Source: a virus. Taken from it: DNA of 29,351 bases. Below, piece after piece: positions 19,667-27,896 of the stretch. Below the pieces are notes generated by a model that did not search any database, was not told the origin of the DNA, and saw only the letters and a list, made by a program, of their open reading frames with translations. Made by a program: the position numbers and the translations under genes. The number at the start of each line of letters is the position of its first letter. The stretch's first letter is position 1. The DNA lies in IMG/VR virus record IMGVR_UViG_3300021960_000352, positions 1 through 29,351 of that record, one strand, 5' to 3'.

Positions 19667-22333
19667 ATGAGTTATGTAGATGCGTTCTACAATCGTGATA
19701 CAGATACCATCCACGTTGTTGAAAGAGTAGATGGTAAAAGACAATTCAAAGAATACCCCGCAAGATATCTATTTTACTATCCTGATGCTAGAGGAAAGTA
19801 TCAGTCAATTTATGGCGAGCCTCTAAATCGTGTAACATGTAAAAATATAAAAGATTTTCACAAAGAACAAAAAATCTATAGCAACAAGAAATTATTTGAA
19901 AGTGATATCAATCCAATTTTTAGATGCTTAGAAGACAACTATCTTAATCAAGACGCACCAAAACTAAATGTTGCGTTTTTCGATATTGAGGTGGACTTTG
20001 ATCCAGAACGTGGGTATGCTTCACCTGAAGATGCTTTTATGCCAATTACTTCAATAGCTGTTCATTTACAGTGGATGGAAGAATTGATTTGTTTAGCAGT
20101 TCCACCTAAAAGCATGGACATGGAAGAAGCAACAAAAGCTGTAAAAGAATTTCCAAATACATATCTTTTTGAAACCGAAGGTGAACTACTTGATGCCTTC
20201 CTCGACTTAATTCAAGACGCAGATATTTTAACTGGTTGGAACAGTGAAGGATTTGATATTCCTTATACTGTTAACCGTGTTACTAAAGTATTATCTAAAG
20301 AAGATACTCGACGTTTTTGTTTATGGGATCAGATGCCTAAGAAACGTGAGTTTGAAAAGTTTGGACGTAAGAGTGTAACTTATGACTTTGTTGGTCGTGT
20401 ACACTTGGACAGTCTTGAACTATATCGCAAGTACACATACGAAGAACGCCATACATATCGACTAGATGCTATTGGCGAAATGGAAATTGGCGAGAACAAA
20501 ACTATTTACGAAGGTACACTCGATCAACTTTACAACAACGACTTTCGAAAGTTTATTGAATATAACAGACAAGATACAGCACTACTAGACAAACTTGATA
20601 AGAAATTAAAGTTCTTAGATTTAGCAAACACCGTTGCTCACGAAAATACTGTATTACTACAAACAACAATGGGTGCTGTTGCTGTTACAGAACAAGGTAT
20701 TATTAACGAAGCACACAGACGTGGCTTTATTGTTCCTAATAGGATTAGACGAGAGCCTGGCAGTGAACCTGCGGCAGGTGCTTATGTAGCATATCCCAAG
20801 AAAGGTATCCATTCATGGATTGGATCTGTTGATATCAACTCACTGTATCCTAGTGCTATTCGTGCTTTGAATATGGGTCCTGAAACTATCGTAGGACAGT
20901 TGCGCCAAGACTATACTAAAAACTTTATTGAAGAACAAATGGTTCGTAACAAGAAATCATTTGCCGCTTCGTGGGAAGGGCAATTTGGTAGTTTAGAATA
21001 CGAGTTTGTTATGGAAAAGAATGTATCAAAAGAAATTGTTATCGACTGGGAAGATGGTAACAGTGATACACTCACAGGCGCACAGATTTATGATTTAATC
21101 TTTGAAAGCAATCAGCCTTGGATGCTTAGTGCCAACGGAACTATTTTCACTTACGATAAGGAAGGTATTATTCCAGGACTTCTAAAACGTTGGTATGCTG
21201 AACGTAAAGAAATGCAAGCTAAACTAAAAGAAGCTAAAGACGCAGAAAATAAGATTGAGATTGAATACTGGGACAAGCGACAGTTAGTTAAAAAGATTAA
21301 CTTGAACAGTTTGTATGGTGCTATTCTTAATCCAGGTTGTAGATTCTTTGATAATAGGATTGGTCAAAGCACAACACTTACCGGACGTACTATTGTAAAA
21401 CACATGGCCGCTAAGATTAACGAAATCATTACAGGCGAATATGATTATAGAGGTAAAGCAATTATCTATGGTGATACTGACTCCTCATACTTTAGTGCTT
21501 ATAATGTACTAAAAACTGAAATTGAAAAAGGACAAATTCCTTGGGATAAAGACAGTGTCGTGAAACTGTATGATCAAATAGCAGACGAAGCATCTGCTAG
21601 TTTTCCTAAGATGATGCTTGATAAGTTTCATTGTCCAAAAACACGTGGCGAAGTTATTGCCGCTGGTCGTGAAGTTGTTGCTTCAAGTGGGTTGTTTATT
21701 ACTAAGAAACGCTATGCTGTTCTATACTATGACATGGAAGGTTTCCGTGTTGATGTCGAAGGCAAGCCAGGTAAGATCAAAGCAATGGGTCTCGATCTTA
21801 AACGTTCTGACACACCTGTTGTTATTCAAGACTTTCTTAAAAATGTACTTGAAATGGTACTAGACGGAAAACCTAAAGAAGATGTTCTTGATTACATTAC
21901 AGAATTTAGAACAGAGTTTCACGGACGCTCAGGTTGGGAGAAAGGATCTCCTAAACGTGCTAACAAGATTACAGAGTATCAAGCAAAAGAAAAGAAACTA
22001 GGAAAGGCAAATATGCCTGGACATGTTCGTGCTTCAATTAATTGGAATACACTAAAACGTATGAATGGGGACAAGTATTCCCAAACTATTACAGACGGTG
22101 CTAAAGTTATTGTTTGTAAAGTTAAAGATAATCCTATGGGATTTACTAGTGTTGCGTATCCGGTAGATGAACTAAGATTACCGGAATGGTTTAAAGAGTT
22201 ACCATTCGATGACGCCACTATGGAAACTACAGTTATCGATGAAAAACTTGGGAATTTGATCGGTGTTTTGGATTGGGATATTTCATCTACAAGACAAGAT
22301 AACACTTTCAATAATTTGTTTGATTTTGAATAA
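19667..22333 (+). CDS. 43: DNA polymerase (T4 gp43-like, family B)
   Basis: An 888-aa replicative polymerase with 3'-5' proofreading (T4: 898 aa). The exonuclease motifs are DIE (106-108), GWNSEGFDIPY (Exo II) and YNRQD (Exo III). The polymerase motifs are DINSLYPS (389-396), KKINLNSLYGA and YGDTDS (601-606), all with catalytic Asp residues intact. The C-terminus, NTFNNLFDFE (879-888), matches the position and style of the T4/RB69 tail peptide that binds the gp45 clamp. AGGAG precedes the ATG directly after a hairpin that may be an autoregulatory operator. The gene is uninterrupted: no intein, intron or split is visible. gp45 follows after 62 nt. Confidence 0.98.
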   Translation: MSYVDAFYNRDTDTIHVVERVDGKRQFKEYPARYLFYYPDARGKYQSIYGEPLNRVTCKNIKDFHKEQKIYSNKKLFESDINPIFRCLEDNYLNQDAPKLNVAFFDIEVDFDPERGYASPEDAFMPITSIAVHLQWMEELICLAVPPKSMDMEEATKAVKEFPNTYLFETEGELLDAFLDLIQDADILTGWNSEGFDIPYTVNRVTKVLSKEDTRRFCLWDQMPKKREFEKFGRKSVTYDFVGRVHLDSLELYRKYTYEERHTYRLDAIGEMEIGENKTIYEGTLDQLYNNDFRKFIEYNRQDTALLDKLDKKLKFLDLANTVAHENTVLLQTTMGAVAVTEQGIINEAHRRGFIVPNRIRREPGSEPAAGAYVAYPKKGIHSWIGSVDINSLYPSAIRALNMGPETIVGQLRQDYTKNFIEEQMVRNKKSFAASWEGQFGSLEYEFVMEKNVSKEIVIDWEDGNSDTLTGAQIYDLIFESNQPWMLSANGTIFTYDKEGIIPGLLKRWYAERKEMQAKLKEAKDAENKIEIEYWDKRQLVKKINLNSLYGAILNPGCRFFDNRIGQSTTLTGRTIVKHMAAKINEIITGEYDYRGKAIIYGDTDSSYFSAYNVLKTEIEKGQIPWDKDSVVKLYDQIADEASASFPKMMLDKFHCPKTRGEVIAAGREVVASSGLFITKKRYAVLYYDMEGFRVDVEGKPGKIKAMGLDLKRSDTPVVIQDFLKNVLEMVLDGKPKEDVLDYITEFRTEFHGRSGWEKGSPKRANKITEYQAKEKKLGKANMPGHVRASINWNTLKRMNGDKYSQTITDGAKVIVCKVKDNPMGFTSVAYPVDELRLPEWFKELPFDDATMETTVIDEKLGNLIGVLDWDISSTRQDNTFNNLFDFE

Positions 22334-22395: not shown

Positions 22396-23133
22396 ATGAA
22401 AGACATTTTACAAGACATTGTTAGCCATACACAGAATCTTGGCTTTCTGACTACTGTAAAAATTACAGGGGAAGAAGAAAGCACTGCTATCTTTTCAATG
22501 GCAGATGATCGTTCAGTGATCATGGAAGCAACTACACATAATCCTTATCCGGATATGATTGGCGTATTTGGTATGCCACAACTTAACAAATTGAAGTATT
22601 TGTTAGACGGCAGTGAGTATAAAGAAGATGCTAAAATTAACATTACTACAGCAGAACGCAATGGCGAAACTATGCCTGTAGGTATTCACTTTGAAAACAA
22701 AAACGGTGACTTTAAAAACGACTATCGTTTCATGAATATGGAAATTATTAATGAAAAGATGAAAACAGTTAAGTTCCGTGGTGCTAACTGGAATGTAACT
22801 ATTGTTCCTACACTTGCTGGTGTACAACGTATGAACTTCCAAGCAGGTGCTAATCCAGAACATCCTACATTCCTTGCTAAGACCGATCAAGGTAATCTTA
22901 AATTTATCTTTGGTGACGCAAGTTCACACGCAGGTGAATTTATTTTTGCTACTGATGTTGAAGGTACATTAGATCGTGGTTGGACTTGGCCAGTTGCTCC
23001 GATTCTTGCTATTCTTAAGATTGCTGATGTTAACAATACTAAGATGAGTTTATCAAACGATGGTGCTATCCAGATCGAATTAGACAGCGGATTAGCAAAT
23101 TACAAATATATCATTCCAGCACAGGCGGCCTAA
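22396..23133 (+). CDS. 45: DNA polymerase sliding clamp (T4 gp45-like)
   Basis: A 245-aa processivity clamp (T4: 228 aa) that should form a trimeric ring holding gp43 on DNA. In T4 it also carries the late transcription machinery. The repeated beta-strand pattern and segments such as ILQDIVSHTQNLGFL, FGMPQLNKLKYLLDG and LKIADVNNTKMSLSNDGAI fit T4-type clamps. It has its own consensus promoter between gp43 and its start. The neighbours on both sides (gp43 and the DpdA-like enzyme) end in, or carry near their end, the peptide TFNNLFD, a likely ligand of this clamp. Its own stop (TAA) forms part of the TAAATA element for the next gene. Confidence 0.93.
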   Translation: MKDILQDIVSHTQNLGFLTTVKITGEEESTAIFSMADDRSVIMEATTHNPYPDMIGVFGMPQLNKLKYLLDGSEYKEDAKINITTAERNGETMPVGIHFENKNGDFKNDYRFMNMEIINEKMKTVKFRGANWNVTIVPTLAGVQRMNFQAGANPEHPTFLAKTDQGNLKFIFGDASSHAGEFIFATDVEGTLDRGWTWPVAPILAILKIADVNNTKMSLSNDGAIQIELDSGLANYKYIIPAQAA

Positions 23134-23141: not shown

Positions 23142-24656
23142 ATGAAAGCACCAATACAACTAACACCATTACAGAAAGACTACGCAGTGTATTTGCCTGC
23201 TATTAGTACTTTCTATTCCACATACATATCTAAACAAAGATACGAAGAATTTGTTCCAGCAGATCGTTTGCCTAAAGGCTTTGATAGAGGCATTGAAGGA
23301 ATGAACTTCTTGAACGCAGACAAAGGTTACTTTGAATATAAGTATGGCCTGTATTCTGCGGGTCACGCACAACTTGACTTAGATAAAACTATTAAACAAG
23401 ATAGTATGATTCAAGAACGTGATAGAGCTAATACAGTTATTGTTGGCGACTCGGGTGGTTATCAGATTGGTAAGGGTGTACTTAAATTTGACTGGTTAAA
23501 CTTTGAAGGTGCCGCGGCAAATAAAGTTCGTAGTAATATTCTTAATTGGTTAGAACTAACTGCTGATTGGTCAATGTTACTTGATGTTCCGACCTGGGCT
23601 AGTGATCATATTCATTCACCTAAGACAGGACTAAAGAGCTTTCAAGATTGTTTAGATAAAACCTTACACAACAACAAATATTTTATTGATAATCGTTTAG
23701 GTAATACAAAGTTCTTAAATGTGTTACAAGGAAGTGATTGGGAAACAGCAGATGCTTGGTATCAAGCAGTTAAACATCTTCCAACAGAAGGTTGGGCTAT
23801 GGGTGGTAAGAATATGTGTGATATGGAGATCGCACTTAAACGTATTATTACACTACGTGATGAAAAACTACTAGAAGATAGAGATTGGATGCACTTCTTG
23901 GGTACAGCACAATTAGATTGGTCATGCTATCTAACTAGTATTCAACGCCAAGTACGTAAAACTATTAATCCAAACTTTACAGTAAGTTTTGATTGTGCTT
24001 CACCATTTATCGCAACTGCTCACGGACTAGTGTACACTAACGCACAACACACAAATAAACGCTGGAGTGTTATTATGGATAAAGCACCTGACGATAAAAG
24101 CATTAGTCAGCATTTTAATATTCCGTTTCCGTTTGAAAGTGAAATAGGTCGTAGAATAACACAGGGCGATATATGTTGGTATAAGCCTGGTATGGTTAAT
24201 AAGATTGGTAAAGAAGGTAAAACATCTTGGGATAGTTTCAGTTACGCACTAATGATGGCACATAATACATACTGTCATATTGTAGCAGTACAACGTGCTA
24301 ACAACTTAACTGATATCGAAACTGCTAGATTCAAGCCAGACTGGAAAGCATGGCGTAAAATTAAAGATTCTGATATGAGTGACGAGTTTAGTGATTGGGT
24401 ACCACGCAATGTGTTGTATTTTGATCGCTTTGTAGAAGAGTTATTTGCTAGTGAAAAACCTTTTGAAATGATCGAACAAGCAAAACCAATGTTGAATAAC
24501 ATGATGGGTATGCGATTAAAAGGTGGTGTAGCAAATAATACGTTTAATAACTTGTTCGATGAAGAACAAAAAACAGGTGGTATTGAAGACTTCAACGATC
24601 CAAACGATGAAGCATTGGCTGAGTTAGAGGAACTATATCACGAACAGGAGGCATAA
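23142..24656 (+). CDS. tRNA-guanine-transglycosylase-like enzyme (DpdA-like), candidate DNA 7-deazaguanine transglycosylase
   Basis: A 504-aa TIM-barrel enzyme of the TGT/DpdA superfamily, which exchanges guanine for a 7-deazaguanine base. DSGGYQ (103-108) matches the TGT motif DSGGFQ with its catalytic Asp. FDC (283-285) matches the nucleophile motif FDCVxPTR. WAMGGKN matches the Gly-rich substrate loop. The CxCxxC zinc site of bacterial TGT is not seen, so this is not ordinary tRNA-modifying TGT. In phages such enzymes insert preQ0-type bases in DNA. The tail has NNTFNNLFDEE (465-475), nearly the same as the polymerase clamp-binding tail, then an acidic end. GTP cyclohydrolase I at 27210 would feed the base pathway. 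DNA as substrate is inferred. Confidence 0.82.
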   Translation: MKAPIQLTPLQKDYAVYLPAISTFYSTYISKQRYEEFVPADRLPKGFDRGIEGMNFLNADKGYFEYKYGLYSAGHAQLDLDKTIKQDSMIQERDRANTVIVGDSGGYQIGKGVLKFDWLNFEGAAANKVRSNILNWLELTADWSMLLDVPTWASDHIHSPKTGLKSFQDCLDKTLHNNKYFIDNRLGNTKFLNVLQGSDWETADAWYQAVKHLPTEGWAMGGKNMCDMEIALKRIITLRDEKLLEDRDWMHFLGTAQLDWSCYLTSIQRQVRKTINPNFTVSFDCASPFIATAHGLVYTNAQHTNKRWSVIMDKAPDDKSISQHFNIPFPFESEIGRRITQGDICWYKPGMVNKIGKEGKTSWDSFSYALMMAHNTYCHIVAVQRANNLTDIETARFKPDWKAWRKIKDSDMSDEFSDWVPRNVLYFDRFVEELFASEKPFEMIEQAKPMLNNMMGMRLKGGVANNTFNNLFDEEQKTGGIEDFNDPNDEALAELEELYHEQEA

Positions 24657-26124: not shown

Positions 26125-27165
26125 ATGACAATTTACATTGTAGACATTGAAGCAGTAGACACACGTTACACTAAACAGTGGAAGGAACATGTTCCTACTC
26201 TATTGCGTAATGCTACAGGTAAAGAAGTCGTAGTTATAAGTGGGGGAGAAACGCCTCAGGCTACAACACCCGGGGCGTTCCTCAACTTTGGCGGAACTAA
26301 TGTTTATAAAAGTAACCAACTAGAACAGATAGGAGAACTATTCTGTAAAGGACAAATAAATGATGGAGATTATTTCTTATATACGGATGCTTGGAACCCG
26401 ACTGTTATCCAGCTTCGCTACATGGCTGAACTACTCAATGTGGACATACGAATCGGTGGCTTATGGCATGCTGGCTCTTATGATCCTGCTGATTTTTTGG
26501 GTAGGCTAATAGGTAACAAACCTTGGGTAAGACATGCTGAGCAAAGCATGTTTGAAGTGTATGATCATAATTTTTATGCTACACAGTTTCATATAGACCT
26601 ATTTAAAGCATCTTTCAATACAGACGATTCTAAAATTGTGCGTACTGGATGGCCAATGGAATATTTGACCGATACACTTTCAATGTATCAAGGTATGGAT
26701 AAACGTAATTTAATTTTATTCCCTCACAGAATTGCTCCAGAAAAACAAGTTGATATTTTCCGTGACTTAAAAGAACAGTTACCTCAATATGAATTTGTCG
26801 TTTGTCAAGAACGTGAACTTACTAAGAATGAGTATCATAACTTACTAGGCGAAGCTAAACTTGTGTTTAGTGCTAACCTACAAGAAACACTCGGTATTAG
26901 TTGGTATGAAGGTGCGTTAGTTGGAGCATTACCAATGGTTCCTGATAGATTAAGCTACAAAGAAATGGCTTTGGATGATTTTAAGTATCCAAGTATTTGG
27001 ACAGAAAACTTTGATTATTATAAAAAACATAAAATCGAAGTAGTAAATGCTGTTAAGAACTATATGGAAAATTATAAAAAATTCCTCCCAAGCCTAAATA
27101 AACAAGTAAAATTACTGAAAGATGAATTTTTCGGTTGCTCTAATATGATAAAAGTGTTAAAATAA
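26125..27165 (+). CDS. GT-B glycosyltransferase (GT4-like)
   Basis: A 346-aa protein with a two-domain GT-B layout. The N-terminal domain begins TIYIVDIEAVDTRY. The C-terminal donor domain has NLILFPHRIAPEKQVDIF and KLVFSANLQETLGISWYEG, containing an exact EX7E motif (E254 and E262), the nucleotide-sugar signature of GT4. ALPMVPDRLSY follows. It should move a sugar from a nucleotide-sugar to an unknown acceptor. In phages such enzymes modify DNA bases, host lipopolysaccharide or virion proteins. The DpdA-like and FolE neighbours make base modification worth considering, but nothing in the sequence fixes the acceptor. AAGGA precedes the ATG. Confidence 0.82.
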   Translation: MTIYIVDIEAVDTRYTKQWKEHVPTLLRNATGKEVVVISGGETPQATTPGAFLNFGGTNVYKSNQLEQIGELFCKGQINDGDYFLYTDAWNPTVIQLRYMAELLNVDIRIGGLWHAGSYDPADFLGRLIGNKPWVRHAEQSMFEVYDHNFYATQFHIDLFKASFNTDDSKIVRTGWPMEYLTDTLSMYQGMDKRNLILFPHRIAPEKQVDIFRDLKEQLPQYEFVVCQERELTKNEYHNLLGEAKLVFSANLQETLGISWYEGALVGALPMVPDRLSYKEMALDDFKYPSIWTENFDYYKKHKIEVVNAVKNYMENYKKFLPSLNKQVKLLKDEFFGCSNMIKVLK

Positions 27166-27209: not shown

Positions 27210-27896
27210 TTGACTAAGTCAGACGAAATTAAACAAAAATTAAATGACGCAGGTATACGCTATTGGGCTGGTGACAACATTTCAAAAGTTTTACAGCCAG
27301 GCGATAAAGAAGAACTTATTAAAGAACTTACAGGCAAGTTCGAAAATGTACTAGACAGTCTTATTATTGATCGACATAACGATCCAAATTCAATGGACAC
27401 TGGCAGGCGTCTAGCAAAGATGTATGTCAACGAAATCATGAGTGGACGATATGATCCGATTCCAAAAGCGACAGCATTTCCAAATGAAGGTGAACAAGCA
27501 TATACAGGTATGCTAGTAGTTCGAAGTGAATTACGCAGTGTATGTTCACATCATCATCAACCAGTAACAGGCGTTGCGTATATTGGTATTATACCTAACG
27601 GCAAAGTAATTGGTCTTTCTAAATATACACGTATCGCACAATGGTGTGCTAGACGAGGCACACTACAGGAAGAACTTTGTAACGACATTGCTCGCGAAAT
27701 TGAAAAAGCAACAGGTGCTAAGAACTTAGGTGTTTATATTCAAGCAACACATGGTTGTTGTGAAAATAGAGGCATTATGGCACACAGCAGTCTTACACAG
27801 ACAACTGTACTAAAAGGCAGTTTTAAAGATGACTCTGGTACTAAAAAAGAGTTTATGGATAATATTAAATTACAACAGGAGTTTGCGCCACGATGA
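27210..27896 (+). CDS. folE: GTP cyclohydrolase I
   Basis: A 228-aa enzyme that converts GTP to dihydroneopterin triphosphate, the first step of folate and of 7-deazaguanine (preQ0) synthesis. The zinc ligands are C112 and a His in VCSHHHQPVTG, and C183 in HGCCENRG. The signature VIGLSKYTRI is intact, as is the ending MAHSSLTQTT. The start is TTG at 27210, with CGGAG 7 nt upstream. No in-frame ATG fits. A small hairpin (GATGAG/CTCGTC, 27172-27190) lies in the leader. With the DpdA-like enzyme it supports a DNA-modification pathway, the other enzymes (QueD, QueE, QueC) being outside the window or from the host. Confidence 0.95.
   Translation: MTKSDEIKQKLNDAGIRYWAGDNISKVLQPGDKEELIKELTGKFENVLDSLIIDRHNDPNSMDTGRRLAKMYVNEIMSGRYDPIPKATAFPNEGEQAYTGMLVVRSELRSVCSHHHQPVTGVAYIGIIPNGKVIGLSKYTRIAQWCARRGTLQEELCNDIAREIEKATGAKNLGVYIQATHGCCENRGIMAHSSLTQTTVLKGSFKDDSGTKKEFMDNIKLQQEFAPR

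Follow-up and report, generated by a model that had tools for sequence, protein, structure and literature searches.

The eukaryotic DNA-modifying enzyme DNMT1 is brought to new DNA by the PCNA clamp via a short peptide, and among phage enzymes the α-glucosyltransferase (α-GT) of T4 was reportedly found by Sommer in 2004 to be bound to the phage clamp, gp45. The α-GT-gp45 binding was confirmed by pull-down in 2026, and it was not the main determinant of the modification level (PMC13216743). In T4, gp43, gp55, and gp33 each attach to the clamp through a C-terminal motif, and these motifs can be exchanged freely for one another (PMC2988020; also PMC7892883); fusing gp55 to gp33, which makes the gp55 motif internal, leaves that motif functional (PMC2988020). 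Three identical subunits make up the T4 clamp, each with one binding patch, and the clamp serves transcription too (PMC7892883). The described phage DpdA and DpdA2 enzymes (PMC6884629; PDB 7ui4) have a TGT fold, carry the DSGG motif and the catalytic Asp motifs, and are found in the company of FolE, QueD, and QueE; phage nt-1, a DpdA2 member, has dPreQ0 in its DNA at about 0.11% of G (PMC6884629).

Here, we analyzed a stretch of 29,351 nucleotides (the window), taken from an IMG/VR virus record (IMGVR_UViG_3300021960_000352), in which a DNA polymerase, a sliding clamp, and a DpdA-like protein are encoded in this order. All genes listed are on the + strand.

90-1004, + strand: clamp loader subunit (RFC small subunit/gp44-like; NCBIfam replication factor C small subunit E 4e-64, below the curated cut-off)
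19667-22333, + strand: family B DNA polymerase, gp43-like (Pfam DNA_pol_B E 1e-34, phrog_262 E 2e-201)
22301-22330, + strand: NTFNNLFDFE at the polymerase C terminus, predicted to bind the clamp (from the sequence; T4-type gp43 agrees in position and conservation)
22396-23133, + strand: PCNA-like sliding clamp, 245 aa (AlphaFold2 pLDDT 93; Foldseek PCNA E 2e-11, TM about 0.68; hhalign)
23142-24656, + strand: DpdA-like TGT-superfamily base-exchange enzyme, 504 aa (AlphaFold2 pLDDT 88; Foldseek TGT E 2e-7, DpdA 7ui4 E 5e-5; invariant motifs)
24534-24566, + strand: NNTFNNLFDEE, residues 465-475 of the DpdA-like protein, predicted to bind the clamp (sequence, conservation, and co-change with the polymerase)

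The polymerase ends in ...RQDNTFNNLFDFE, and eight residues of its tail (DNTFNNLFDFE), NTFNNLFD, recurred in the DpdA-like protein. Outside this octamer, the two proteins had two 4-mers and no 5-mer in common. An earlier note on this DNA had read the polymerase end (NTFNNLFDFE) and the position of the clamp gene, directly between the other two, as we found them; it also placed the peptide at the right residues of the DpdA-like protein, although its coordinates (24531-24563) were one codon early and the identity that it saw, TFNNLFD, was one residue too short. We propose, with a probability of roughly 83%, that the peptide is a sliding-clamp-binding motif tethering the DpdA-like enzyme to the clamp, on new DNA, for the swap of guanine for 7-deazaguanine. 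The peptide on the flexible C-terminal tail would dock where the polymerase tail docks, in the same clamp pocket. Held by the clamp, the base-exchange enzyme would stay on phage DNA that has just been copied and exchange guanine there for 7-deazaguanine. Since the T4 clamp has one patch per subunit (PMC7892883), polymerase and DpdA could share one homotrimeric clamp and ride together. The window DpdA motif lies 30 residues before the C terminus and that of the polymerase is terminal, an objection answered by the gp55 motif, which also works internally (PMC2988020).

The motifs of T4 gp43, gp55, gp33, and DNA ligase are, like that of DpdA, short hydrophobic and acidic peptides on a flexible linker (PMC2988020, PMC7892883); however, these clients replicate, transcribe, or seal DNA, and none is base-modifying as DpdA would be. 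α-GT on gp45 shares with the proposed tether that a phage DNA-modifying enzyme sits on the phage sliding clamp, but it is another enzyme with another chemistry, and a gp43-like tail, sought at the α-GT C terminus, was not found there. DNMT1 on PCNA is also different, with an unrelated enzyme and peptide and a role in maintenance methylation of the host genome.

The assignment of the DpdA-like protein draws on its predicted structure and on conserved residues; a pathway gene lies downstream.

23448-23459, + strand: codons for residues 103-106 (DSGG), an active-site motif of the TGT type (invariant in 42 homologues)
23991-23993, + strand: codon of D284, likely catalytic nucleophile, in SFDCASP (invariant in 42 homologues; role inferred from TGT)
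24516-24605, + strand: disordered tail, DpdA residues 459-488 (AlphaFold2 pLDDT <50)
27210-27896, + strand: FolE (GTP cyclohydrolase I), with which the 7-deazaguanine pathway starts (Pfam GTP_cyclohydroI E 7e-40)

The AlphaFold2 model showed a TGT-type (β/α)8 fold, with moderate similarity in Foldseek to TGTs (TM 0.41/0.53) and to the DNA preQ0 insertase DpdA (7ui4). Among 42 diverse homologues, D103, S104, G105, G106, and Q108 (DSGG(Y/F)Q), D148, and D284 were invariant or nearly so, a sequence pattern as expected for an active TGT-type enzyme. DSGG presumably has the active-site role that it has in the Z. mobilis TGT, and by the same analogy D284 is likely the nucleophile. No matches were obtained for the protein in Pfam, PHROGs, or NCBIfam or in a profile search of PDB sequences, and comparison with the DpdA2 subfamily (nt-1 DpdA2) gave an hhalign probability of 1-7%, that is, no detectable sequence homology. 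The window family shares its fold, the DSGG and catalytic Asp motifs, and the FolE/QueD/QueE company with the known phage enzymes; unlike DpdA2, it mostly goes without QueC, and by its sequences it is a separate subfamily. A further difference from known phage DpdA and DpdA2 is the long, disordered tail that bears the putative clamp peptide. Within this tail, F472 and F468 were identical in 88% and 71% of the 42 diverse members, and most adjoining columns were far less conserved. Like a clamp client, the protein thus has, on a flexible linker, a peptide resembling that of its cognate polymerase. At the very end of the tail (residues 490-502; 24609-24647), another short element is conserved, a predicted helix with conserved L492, L495, and E496.

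Besides FolE in the window, a QueE homologue was present ~9-10 kb downstream of DpdA in the relatives G002 and G003 (the G003 match to NCBIfam QueE being below the cut-off), and QueD-like genes were present in 12 of 20 related records. The DpdA-like product, accompanied by FolE, QueD, and QueE genes, is a putative DNA 7-deazaguanine insertase. QueC was not found above threshold in the G001-G017, PA5oct, and Phosso records (G005 gave one sub-threshold match) and was present only in Vibrio phage 2.275.O; the final base may therefore be an unusual one or be supplied by the host. Clamp binding could be real and yet serve another purpose, such as competition for the clamp with the polymerase or other clients, repair, late transcription, or action on an RNA base, which we consider improbable: the missing QueC, the transcriptional role of the T4 clamp (PMC7892883), and the minor influence of clamp binding on modification by α-GT (PMC13216743) would agree with it, but nt-1 has dPreQ0 in its DNA (PMC6884629), FolE, QueD, and QueE genes accompany the enzyme, and a clamp encircles DNA, not tRNA. 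DNA rather than tRNA is the favored substrate of this TGT relative, and the tag itself speaks for DNA. As clamp binding is not what mainly sets modification by T4 α-GT (PMC13216743), the effect of coupling modification to replication may be modest.

Between DpdA and folE, we also observed a 346-aa glycosyltransferase-like ORF (26125-27165, + strand) with nothing above threshold in Pfam, PHROG, or NCBIfam. Its product was 47% identical to Phosso gp224 (annotated glycosyltransferase) and PA5oct gp167, the latter coming directly after DpdA, and may further modify the inserted base.

The 245-aa protein had no Pfam match, and its AlphaFold2 model was assigned the PCNA fold by Foldseek. It aligned end to end with the annotated sliding clamp of Sinorhizobium phage Phosso (hhalign E 1e-51). 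The clamp gene adjoined DpdA, or stood close by, in most loci. Phosso gp439, beside the Phosso DpdA, was considered as a second clamp and found unsupported; the Phosso clamp is gp221, beside the polymerase. The jumbo-phage clamp, with its predicted PCNA fold, is listed under phrog_12062 as function unknown in PHROGs, and PA5oct gp170 is labelled "structural protein".

The polymerase tails carried LF in most genomes and FF in some, and FF was found in DpdA in 7/7 genomes with an FF polymerase versus 3/80 with an LF polymerase (Fisher 2e-8; 5/5 versus 1/31 at <75% identity, p 1.6e-5), with the reservation that related genomes are non-independent samples and that the co-change is confined to about four branches. 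When mapped on a DpdA tree built from the cores, tail excluded, FF in the polymerase requires at least five changes, the FF branches being L067, L256, L326, and the clade L190/L191/L196/L238, which is interrupted by L258, whose polymerase end was incompletely recovered. In L067, DpdA has ENTFTKFFEDE and the polymerase DNTFGKFFSFD, and its sister L199 has LF in both; in L191, DpdA ends in EVMNEFFEF and the polymerase in ETMQQFFEF.

The same correspondence recurred in DpdA2, a remote subfamily belonging to T4-type phages, five lineages of which carry the peptide of their own polymerase in the tail or, in the KVP40 group, internally, FF pairing with FF and LF with LF: Stenotrophomonas phage Moby (polymerase SSLEDLFGW, DpdA2 NSLDDLFG), Xanthomonas phage X1 (SSLESLFG, QSLEELFG), Acidovorax phage ACP17 (PSLDDLFE, TTLDELFE), Synechococcus phage BUCT-ZZ01 (STLDDFFS, ASLDSFFD), and the KVP40 group (polymerase TLESFFG, internal DpdA2 insert DLSAFFGG). 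The peptide was not found in the DpdA2 of nt-1 and pf16, and the nt-1 polymerase tail is the same as that of KVP40. T4 gp43 ends in SLDFLFG (not in an FDMFDF-like tail, as had been supposed) and gp55 has SLDFLYE near its end, and both match the DpdA2 tails. The proposal of the earlier note, that a modifying enzyme carries a clamp-binding peptide, thereby gained support from a conserved island in a disordered tail, from the co-change with the polymerase, and from the recurrence in DpdA2. The co-change alone points to a common partner of polymerase and DpdA, without saying which, and the peptide could be a shared docking signal for the clamp loader, single-strand binding protein, or helicase instead; we regard this as quite improbable, since clamp binding is established for the matching tails of T4 gp43 and gp55 (PMC2988020, PMC7892883) and since most loci have the clamp gene next to DpdA or near it.

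Polymerase and DpdA genes were both present in 241 loci. With motif positions, here and for the FF and LF counts, set by a rule-based locator, both proteins had the motif in 36 of 40 diverged representatives (<75% identity), so the absence from close homologues that the earlier note had named as refuting its proposal did not occur. A clear motif was not found in the family members L236, L258, L300, and L318, and the peptide persisted at 30-50% protein identity. The strict motif score was reached by 65% of DpdA tails versus 3.9% of 2417 control tails (other tails from the same loci), and in 21 of 37 loci, against an expectation of 2.9, no other protein matched the polymerase tail of the locus as well as DpdA did. 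In Vibrio phage 2.275.O, DpdA ends in NNNDLFGW and the polymerase in NNTDLFDW, and only 2 of 512 ORFs end in DLF(D/G)W; in PA5oct, F(D/N)SLF(G/D) occurred in only 2 of 434 ORFs, the polymerase and DpdA. When whole proteomes were ranked against the polymerase tail with BLOSUM62, DpdA was the top non-polymerase protein in Vibrio 2.275.O and G003 and, with 10- and 12-residue tails, in G001; it was only third among non-polymerase proteins in G002 and was not the top one in PA5oct, where the terminal W dominates. The PA5oct polymerase gene (L082:1605-6831) is interrupted by a gene for a Hef-like homing endonuclease, and the clamp peptide lies on the second of the two pieces.

From composition, ~1e-5 occurrences of any 7-mer of the polymerase tail would be expected in DpdA. 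The NTFNNLFD codons of the two genes were identical at 19 of 24 nucleotides, and all five differences were synonymous, which rules out that the polymerase tail was copied into DpdA recently, including by gene conversion. A recent copy, coincidence, and low-complexity resemblance are very improbable and for practical purposes already refuted by conservation and co-change: N-rich tails do look alike more easily, and 27% of control tails reached the loosest score, but chance is rejected by the ~1e-5 expectation, the excess of best matches, and the strict score, and the peptide persists among distant homologues and recurs in DpdA2.

In titles, abstracts, and counts, we found no literature link of DpdA or 7-deazaguanine to the clamp beyond co-mention (most subscription papers lay outside the search, and an earlier report is possible), and the word "clamp" is absent from the key DpdA paper (PMC6884629). 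A tag shared with the clamp hook of the polymerase would offer a concrete mechanism for how 7-deazaguanine phages coat their DNA before host nucleases arrive. Phages nt-1 (untagged DpdA2, same polymerase tail) and KVP40 (tagged) form a natural experiment: a true tether would predict more modified G in KVP40 than in nt-1, a prediction only, as low modification has other possible causes.

The tag can also be used for finding further DNA-acting enzymes. The Phosso polymerase ends in TTFNDLFTF, two more Phosso proteins end in NLNDLFDFG and QLSDLFDFG, and the Phosso DpdA ends only in VEGLF, a weak match to the motif. Candidate clamp clients ending in DLFDFG were gp228 (L188:10488-10895), a small protein encoded within the folE-queE cluster, and gp306 (L189:4053-4925), the annotated glycosyltransferase to which the tag led us, whose sole Pfam match was the TET-associated glycosyltransferase family TAGT (E 0.026, sub-threshold). 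This one genome suggests that other modifying enzymes may use the tag. That tethering by the polymerase hook is a general phage hypermodification strategy, with several unrelated enzymes tagged per phage, as in Phosso, and the tag helping to set the modified fraction, is a tentative extension that we think somewhat doubtful. In Moby, a 253-aa ORF with a CPKCG element (40582-41343) ends in GLEDFFG, close to the polymerase SLEDLFGW, and is a possible third clamp client.
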